NCBI GenBank assembly: GCA_002840645.1
Contig: PHBO01000003.1
Span: 186,001 to 250,000, forward strand
Length of the DNA stretch: 64,000 bases
Direction: 5' to 3'
Source of the DNA: Candidatus Cloacimonetes bacterium HGW-Cloacimonetes-3
Lineage (GTDB): Bacteria > Cloacimonadota > Cloacimonadia > Cloacimonadales > Cloacimonadaceae
The position numbers and the translations under genes were made by a program. The notes beneath the pieces are model-generated. The model did not search any database and was not told the origin of the DNA. It was given only the letters and a program-made list of their open reading frames with translations. Shown here one piece after another: positions 30,901 through 32,165 of this stretch (positions within the stretch are counted from its first letter, which is position 1; each line of letters begins with the position of its first letter).

Positions 30901-31039
30901 TTGGGAACCTCTCTATGTAGCATTGATACGTGCCTTGGAACATGAAAACAAGAAAGGAAATTTATGTCAAGAAATCAGTACTATTTGGCGAGTCTGGTGT
31001 TTGAGTATCAGCATGAAAGCCAACAATACATGAGAGGTT

Positions 31040-31228
31040 TGACTTAAAAATCCGCCCCAGGATAACTATCCGTTTCGTAACCACTGAAAAGGGCGGAATT
31101 TTGAGTTAAACCGGATAGTATCTGCGAATTGATATTGCAGCGGGTAAACCTCTGTTTAACTCAAAAAAAGCCACTGTGCACTAAGTACATAAGCAATGTT
31201 GGTTAAAGTGGCTTTTTTTAAGTCAAAC
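31040..31228. repeat. Left REP pair flanking the RAYT transposase (R1 and inverted R2)
   Basis: R1 (31040-31112) starts GACTTAAAAATCCGCCC and ends GGGCGGAATTTTGAGTTAAA. R2 (31154-31228) is the mirrored form: GTTTAACTC, then AAAAAAAGCCACT pairing with AGTGGCTTTTTTT, then AAGTCAAAC. Each is a hairpin bounded by GACTT and GAGTTAAA, and the two face each other, like a BIME. No gene is seen in 30901-31295. Confidence 0.85.
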
Positions 31229-31295
31229 AAAGATATTGCTTGACGAAAACATTAGAGTTGATGCTGTTATGCTAAACAGTTTGGGAGTAGTTGCT

Positions 31296-31871
31296 ATGCG
31301 TATTCATCCTACCCAATGCGGACCGGGGACATACATTCACATTGTAAACCATGCCATAGATGGCAGAGAGCTATTCTACGATCCTGGGGATTACAAAACC
31401 TATCTGACCTTTCTGAAAGAGCGGATGAGCGATGAGTTCAGTGTGATAGCCTACTGTTTGATGCCTAACCATTTCCACTTTCTAATCCGACAAAATGCTT
31501 ACGCTCCCATCTCTGCATTGTTTGAACAGCCACATAAACGGTATGCACGCTACTACAACAACAAATACGATTGCCGTGGCAGAATCTTTCGAGGCAAGCT
31601 GGCGAATAAGTATGTGATGGAAGACAATTATCTTGTTGCTGCTTGTGCATACATTCATGCTAATCCCTTGCAGGCAAATCTGGTAAGCCTGCCGGAGGAT
31701 TGGGAATATTCTAACTTCAGGGAGTTTATGGGGATTAGGCATGGAACATTGTTTTCTAAACAATTTGTTGATGATTGGATCGGCAACCGAGAGGATTACC
31801 GCAACAAGGTAGTAGATACTGCACGTAAGAAGAGCTTGCAGAAAGCATTTGCGATGGATAACATATTTTGA
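31296..31871 (+). CDS. REP-associated tyrosine transposase (RAYT, Y1/HUH family)
   Basis: A 191-residue single-strand DNA transposase of the IS200/REP class. The HUH metal motif is in LMPNHFHFLI (His59, His61). The probable catalytic Tyr119 is in the AYIHANPLQANLV helix, and SNFREFMG closes the domain. The family cuts REP hairpins and is normally domesticated as a single chromosomal copy. I prefer the ATG at 31296, which has GGGAG ten bases upstream and puts the TYIHIVNH strand at the usual N-terminal distance; in-frame TTG 31236 and ATG 31269 are alternatives. The stop codon TGA is itself part of the first downstream repeat (GACTT). Pairs of REP-like hairpins lie on both sides. Confidence 0.92.
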   Translation: MRIHPTQCGPGTYIHIVNHAIDGRELFYDPGDYKTYLTFLKERMSDEFSVIAYCLMPNHFHFLIRQNAYAPISALFEQPHKRYARYYNNKYDCRGRIFRGKLANKYVMEDNYLVAACAYIHANPLQANLVSLPEDWEYSNFREFMGIRHGTLFSKQFVDDWIGNREDYRNKVVDTARKKSLQKAFAMDNIF

Positions 31872-32044
31872 CTTACAACTGAAGCCATCTGCCAGCTTCA
31901 GCATATTCCCGGTTTCAGCGGCTTCAGTTGTGAGTTAAAATGTGGGCAATTTATGCGGGTGATCCCTCTGTTTAACTCAAAAAAAGCCACTGTGTAGCAA
32001 GTACATAGGCACAGTGGGGAGAGGTGGCTTTTTTTAAGTCAAAC
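31868..32044. repeat. Right REP pair flanking the RAYT transposase (R3 and inverted R4)
   Basis: R3 (31868-31940): TTTGACTT, then a perfect 12-bp stem ACAACTGAAGCC (31875-31886) / GGCTTCAGTTGT (31920-31931), then GAGTTAAA. R4 (31970-32044): GTTTAACTC, AAAAAAAGCCAC / GTGGCTTTTTTT, AAGTCAAAC, nearly identical at its ends and stem to R2. The boundary words are constant, while the R1 and R3 stem sequences differ. Confidence 0.88.
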
Positions 32045-32064: not shown

Positions 32065-32120
32065 GAAAATAAACGCCAAATCTGTCCCAAAACTTCGGAT
32101 TTGTCCCCCACACTACTATG
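32065..32120. repeat. Dispersed AAATCTGTCCC repeat, copy 1
   Basis: AAATAAACGCCAAATCTG, TCCCAAAA, then a second related half GGATTTGTCCCCC and ACTACTAT. The same order recurs at 58522-58576. It lies just outside the right REP pair. Confidence 0.7.
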
Positions 32121-32165
32121 AAGGATAAAAATTCTCACACGGATTGTGCTTGACAGATAAAAACC

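Follow-up and report, generated by a model that had tools for sequence, protein, structure and literature searches.

A REPtron-like unit of a RAYT-like transposase and mirrored hairpin pairs without a GTAG foot in a Cloacimonadota genome

The window, the 64,000-nucleotide stretch of DNA analysed here, lies on a 324-kb contig of the genome of Candidatus Cloacimonetes bacterium HGW-Cloacimonetes-3 (the host genome, G000; assembly 2.68 Mb, 97.5% complete). Approximately 1 kb of the window sequence (31038–32043) holds four hairpins and a transposase gene in the order R1> <R2 – gene – R3> <R4 (Table 1), the order given in the initial annotation, whose coordinates were off by 1-2 nt. Each hairpin is ~73 nt long, with a stem of ~20 bp and a loop of 30–35 nt. 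All four are bounded by TTTGACTT and GAGTTAAA, one on each side; the boundaries had been described as GACTT and GAGTTAAA, and both are present, the left word being longer. For the pattern GACTTN{30,60}GAGTTAAA the window gives 4 matches where 0.03 would be expected, and the fold z-scores of R1–R4 are -4.6 to -6.5 relative to shuffles on the GACTT-first strand. R2 and R4, noted earlier to have a common stem, are 86% identical over 81 nt, and R1 and R3 have nothing in common beyond the words. The observation made in the initial annotation is confirmed.

Table 1. Hairpins, pair units and transposase gene at the locus (window positions).
Feature	Position	Strand	Description
R1 hairpin	31038–31110	+	TTTGACTT...GAGTTAAA; stem AAAATCCGCCC/GGGCGGAATTTT; loop ~33 nt; diverged copy G000:C15:108233-108305
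R2 hairpin, mirrored	31155–31227	-	stem AAAAAAAGCCAC; right-hand member of pair unit 1; diverged copy G000:C15:108350-108424
RAYT-like Y1/HUH transposase gene	31296–31871	+	191 aa; HUH = H59-F-H61; predicted catalytic Y119 in YIHANP
R3 hairpin	31867–31939	+	stem ACAACTGAAGCC/GGCTTCAGTTGT; first word holds the gene stop; diverged copy G000:C15:154569-154642
R4 hairpin, mirrored	31971–32043	-	stem of the R2 family; right-hand member of pair unit 2; diverged copy G000:C15:154701-154786
Pair unit 1 (R1> <R2)	31038–31227	.	outer words GACTT-side, inner words GAGTT-side; dispersing (REPIN-like) unit; homologous unit G000:C15:108227-108430
Pair unit 2 (R3> <R4)	31867–32043	.	homologous unit G000:C15:154563-154786

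The TGA stop codon (31869-31871) lies within the first word TTTGACTT (31867-31874) of R3, an overlap that had been read as a physical fusion of the gene with its substrate. The fusion is real here and in the orthologue of genome G001, where stop codon and hairpin likewise overlap. In the G004 orthologue (L029) the stop reads TTTTGATTT and an intact hairpin begins just downstream, so fusion is not obligatory. The gene most likely starts at the ATG at 31296 and not at the TTG of the longest ORF, as the proteins of its relatives begin MR... A consensus search found no sigma-70 promoter for the gene. Just 3' of R4, at 32066-32124, lies a distinct dispersed repeat of ~60 nt (GAAAATAAACGCCAAATCTGTCCCAAAACTTCGG...), with about 25 or more genome copies at 78-92% identity.

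The gene encodes a Y1/HUH transposase with a predicted fold that most resembles E. coli TnpAREP/RAYT (4ER8). In brief, the protein matches the Pfam family PF01797 (Y1_Tnp; 4.5e-8) and scores 57.6 bits with the NCBIfam REP-associated tyrosine transposase model NF047646, which is below the equivalog cut-off of 80. A single-sequence phmmer search against PDB gave no match and an alignment profile was needed; the profile built from ten relatives hit 4ER8 at 1.5e-6, with H59/H61 and Y119 falling on its HUH and Tyr regions. The AlphaFold2 model (pLDDT 92.7), compared with all PDB chains, also matched 4ER8 best (E 7e-8, TM 0.71 on target), followed by the IS608 and ISDra2 transposases. H59, H61, Y119, N123 and P124 are invariant across 48 relatives. 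As judged from sequence, the protein has the HUH motif and the single putative catalytic Tyr in a Y1 domain that mark RAYT class 2. The Y motif, YIHANP at 119-124, has the form Y---NP of class 2 and not the Y---Q of IS200 TnpA, a distinction drawn in PMC6006769. The host genome has one gene of this type, the next relatives being 39-40% identical, which agrees with the low copy number of RAYTs and not with an IS. The earlier identification as a RAYT is supported by these matches.

Hairpins of the same kind are dispersed in the host genome. A scan for further GACTT-hairpin units, the absence of which was to speak against the initial annotation, gave 15 exact units of TGACTTN{40,70}GAGTTAAA genome-wide and none with the reversed pattern, so that this refutation fails. 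The pattern TTTGRYTTN{30,60}RAGYTAAA gave 21 matches genome-wide (control 0), one of which looks spurious with an unconvincing stem, and a covariance model added a few further copies. The stems of the 21 copies covary strongly: 93.8% of cells are paired, against 71.4% in shuffled alignments. The covariation score is 0.566 versus 0.168 in shuffles (0/500 shuffles), and it collapses when the alignment is slid by one column. None of the 21 model hairpins lies wholly within an ORF of at least 100 aa; two, including R3, overlap ORF ends. The copies read have the foot (G)TTTGACTT / GAGTTAAA(C), and the 5' GT[AG]G tetranucleotide of canonical REPs is not present. At ~20 the copy number is low for REPs. 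An Rfam search gave only sub-threshold chance miRNA matches. TTGAC is found 12-33 nt outward of six right-hand hairpins (L062, L066, L068, L069, L071, L074), as if the pairs were located just upstream of promoters.

The hairpins are dispersed as pairs. Adjacent hairpins are convergent (R> <R) in 9/9 cases in this family, 8/9 in a second family of the host and 9/9 in genome G011, in total 26/27. On contig C15 of the host genome there are homologues of both R1–R2 and R3–R4 (Table 1), spacers and loops included, from which the transposase gene is absent; no decayed RAYT copies were found at these pair loci. A third pair family, on C22 and C29, has GTCGC in the left stem and GAAGCC in the right stem. 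Within a pair, the stems of the two hairpins are usually unrelated. At L297 (G000:C15:108233-109813), the place that the RAYT has in the window is taken by a 385-aa ATPase-like ORF (108512-109669), with an R1/R2-like pair on one side and an R4-like hairpin on the other.

The limits of the copied unit are visible in G011. In this related genome, across ten units of another pair, the identity rises from ~30-60% to 99% at the left outer word TTTTGACTT; the first block is 99% identical and the left flanks are unlike one another. Directly past the right outer word AAGTCAAAAC the copies diverge again, so the copied unit begins and ends with its outer words. CTG is found directly before TTTTGACTT in 9/10 of these copies, and as the known TnpAREPs cut at CT (PMC8266576), this gives a lead on the cut site. 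Many pair units in G011 (L262-L271) are directly followed by another short palindromic repeat (GTGCGTCATCCTGACGCACAG...GAGCGACAGGATGTCGCTC).

The words track the transposase. In G010 (53% identity), G001 (60%) and G004 (58%) the orthologues are flanked by hairpins that have words of the same kind, TTTTGACT(T/C)…GAGTTAAAA and GACT...GAGTTAAA-type, on other stems. The RAYT region of G001 (L028 1-3543, G001:C1:631803-635345) also has tandem repeats of ~124 nt with GAGTTAAAAC hairpin halves, a local amplification beside the gene. The host genome encodes a second type of RAYT, on C26 (39% identity) and as a frameshifted copy on C12 (about 40% identical), flanked by hairpins whose words are GGAGTTC…GGACTTC; 26 dispersed copies of these hairpins are found in the host genome, against 0 in the control. 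The C12 copy (G000:C12:14850-15420, L299) is frameshifted yet still flanked by hairpins.

Among the genomes compared, G003 belongs to the same genus as the host and G047 to the same family. L055 and L032 (G047) have the words GGAGT(C/T)C…GGACTTC, and L107 and L110 have GAGTTCA…TGGACTT. L117, from another phylum, Neomarinimicrobiota, has the complete layout R> <R–gene–R> <R with the words TTGACTTAAG…GAGTTAAG and shares its core words with the window unit. Together these RAYTs make up one supported clade of 19 (100/100). RAYTs from Chloroflexota and Cyanobacteriota, outside this clade, are flanked by hairpins with unrelated words. It had been proposed that the boundary words are kept as the stems vary, and this holds across species, from one paralogue to another and in one further phylum.

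When GACTT pairs with GAGTT it forms G·T, three ordinary pairs and T·G (G.T-NNN-T.G). On the opposite strand the wobbles become A·C mismatches, and one strand therefore folds somewhat better than the other (GACTT-first versus opposite strand: R2 –17.4 vs –16.0, R4 –17.3 vs –14.5 kcal/mol). The fixed wobbles, two G·T pairs with three base pairs between them, form a putative strand-specific mark. It should be noted that the search pattern fixes some of the wobble letters, so that the word-selected alignment cannot alone prove wobble conservation; hairpins found beside other RAYTs without a word search were therefore used as independent evidence. In the window, L023 and L117, each of the four hairpins has the signature; hairpins of L032, L107, L110 and L031 have it too. 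Those of L055, L033 and L034 deviate from the exact G.T-NNN-T.G. The outward-facing word is constant within a family, GACTT in that of the window and GAGTT in the second one.

The unit has the features of a REPtron as described in PMC6006769, with the exception of the GT[AG]G foot: the gene is flanked by several hairpins, some of them inverted pairs, and like hairpins are dispersed between genes elsewhere. The initial annotation had called it REPtron-like, which agrees with the layout; the formal mark of a REP, the GTAG foot, is absent. The E. coli REPtron (TnpAREP, RAYT group 2 / subclass 2.2, REP/BIME pairs) likewise has a single-copy Y1/HUH gene flanked by inverted hairpin pairs, pairs dispersed as intergenic copies, and two conserved stem irregularities, mismatches that are required for activity in E. 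coli (PMC8266576). The window unit differs in that it has no GTAG foot and in that its stem irregularities consist of G.T wobbles formed where the edge words pair with each other. E. coli REPs are 20-40 nt long and present in hundreds of copies, whereas this family has ~73 nt and ~20 copies. The E. coli protein is the best profile and fold match, yet only 15% identical by structural alignment, and the window protein lacks its W-Q guide-reading motif (F98 is about there, as read from the alignment).

RAYT-like genes flanked by 'atypical secondary structures' that lack GT[AG]G and recur elsewhere in the genome are described for TnpAY1 subclass 2.6 and class 3 by Quentin et al. 2018 (PMC6006769). 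The Y motif of subclass 2.6, YIH[QN]NP, resembles the YIHANP/YIHQNP found here. According to the same paper, subclass 2.6 is mostly from Bacteroidetes and has WQ, whereas the window protein has NHFH and YIHANP and no WQ, so that agreement, compared by motifs, is partial. The atypical REPs were noted in 2018 by manual inspection, and the part of that paper covered gives no recognition rules, nor any word, wobble or pair rules.

Another related system is TIRYT/TIRtrons (Di Nocera et al. 2013, PMC3733652), TnpAY1 subclass 2.1. These are RAYT-like genes flanked by non-GTAG inverted repeats, some of which are self-complementary and dispersed as dimers and some of which overlap the gene end. The window protein has motifs close to those of subclass 2.1 (NH[YF]H, FQ and Y[IV]HLNP). 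The common TIR consensus given there, GGGGWSAS, is not seen here. Subclass 2.1 also differs by a C-terminal HTH domain, and PMC6006769 reports that no REP-like hairpins were found for it. The REPINs of Pseudomonas fluorescens (PMC3116915) share the RAYT-linked inverted hairpin pair with spacer as the dispersing unit, and differ in words and hairpin size and in that the pairs here usually have unrelated stems. The window system overlaps the 'atypical' REPs of Quentin et al. 2018, and its kind is already known, since both GTAG-less structures (PMC6006769) and TIR-flanked relatives (PMC3733652) have been reported. In the passages of the two papers covered, no mention was found of the word rule or the wobble box, of an association between words and clade in this branch, or of two systems sharing a genome.

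At the orthologous chromosomal locus no RAYT was found in five relatives (G001, G002, G004, G005, G007), and the G001 orthologue sits at another chromosomal position; the position of the RAYT gene is thus not conserved. The locus in G002 is without the unit, and its intergenic DNA is too diverged to mark the insertion point. In G001, G004, G005 and G007 (L258-L261) a 522-aa gene lies between fecB-like and helicase-like genes; at this place the window has the RAYT unit and lacks the gene. The gene at 53–1621 of the window was considered as its counterpart and is a different gene. Hairpins and transposase are also not always found together, which, like the low copy number, speaks against the reading proposed below. 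G011 (99% complete) has 25 hairpins with these words; no relative of the window transposase was found in it, and its sole Y1 gene is distant. The transposase gene may have been lost, may lie in an assembly gap, or another enzyme may serve the hairpins. G002 and G006 have hairpin copies with no close transposase relative detected, both assemblies being about 80% complete.

The lack of conserved position would also be seen if the 1-kb unit were an autonomous insertion sequence of the IS200/IS605 type, with subterminal hairpins and moving as a whole, and a Y1/HUH enzyme with hairpins at both ends is what such an element would have. We regard this as very improbable. Per genome, each RAYT type is present once or as two diverged copies, and hairpin pairs are multicopy without the gene; several near-identical whole elements carrying the gene were not seen, and the related C15 loci hold no decayed gene copy. 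Moreover, each flank is a full mirrored pair and not a single end, and the Y---NP motif is that of class 2, not the Y---Q of IS200 TnpA (PMC6006769).

An improbable alternative is that the gene merely happens to lie among intergenic RNA elements of an ordinary kind, the hairpins being bidirectional terminators or stabilisers of mRNA 3' ends. The dispersed copies are all intergenic or nearly so, the stems of R2 and R4 end in T runs, R4 received one terminator-like call, and the outward TTGAC motifs place six right-hand hairpins near putative promoters. R1 and R3, however, have no long T tail, and neither the 26/27 convergent pairing nor unit ends exactly at the words is expected of terminators. 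Ordinary RNA elements would also leave it unexplained that the words track the transposase clade, with orthologues having the same words on other stems, a paralogue in the same genome other words, and a relative in another phylum the same layout. Integron attC-like sites, or substrates of another recombinase, came into view through the boundary GTTAAAC, which resembles the attC R-box core, GTTRRRY, and through the structured, single-stranded form with built-in mismatches. Mirrored pairs in place of head-to-tail cassettes, and the constant link to Y1 transposases across species, make this extremely improbable; the integron reading was rejected, as no integron integrase (TIGR02249) scored above the curated cut-off in the host genome.

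Based on these observations, we suggest that the locus is likely a REPtron-like unit of a GTAG-less RAYT family, whose enzyme would read the edge words, cut by the outer word and spread the pairs. Recognition and spread of these hairpins are very probably the work of this gene's product, because the pairs are scattered in the genome and the words track the transposase across species as the rest of the hairpin varies. In brief, the product would be a single-strand-specific HUH/Y1 nuclease, its putative substrates being the mirrored hairpin pairs (R> <R), both those on either side of the gene and those dispersed in intergenic DNA. We infer that the enzyme most likely binds the two edge words, paired via G.T wobbles, on the strand that forms wobbles rather than the one with A.C mismatches, the sequence of stem and loop being free provided that the stem pairs. 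Y119 would then cut next to the outer word, and the whole pair, bounded by its outer words, would be copied or moved to further intergenic sites, the gene itself staying at one copy per family.

We further speculate, tentatively, that in this RAYT branch (Cloacimonadota, Neomarinimicrobiota) recognition could have moved: instead of a GTAG foot next to the hairpin, the enzyme would read a mirror-symmetric wobble box (G.T-NNN-T.G, core GA[CG]T) within the base of the hairpin. Such a box might set strand choice and specificity, might have co-diverged with each transposase, and might allow two orthogonal RAYT-hairpin systems per genome.

The finding bears on how RAYTs recognise REPs without GTAG, and extends the RAYT-driven spread of intergenic hairpins to the little-studied phylum Cloacimonadota. 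Two transposase families coexist here in one genome, both having words of their own and 20–26 dispersed putative substrates, and there are natural variants of word, stem and wobble; word specificity, the role of the stem irregularities and the transposed unit are therefore directly testable.
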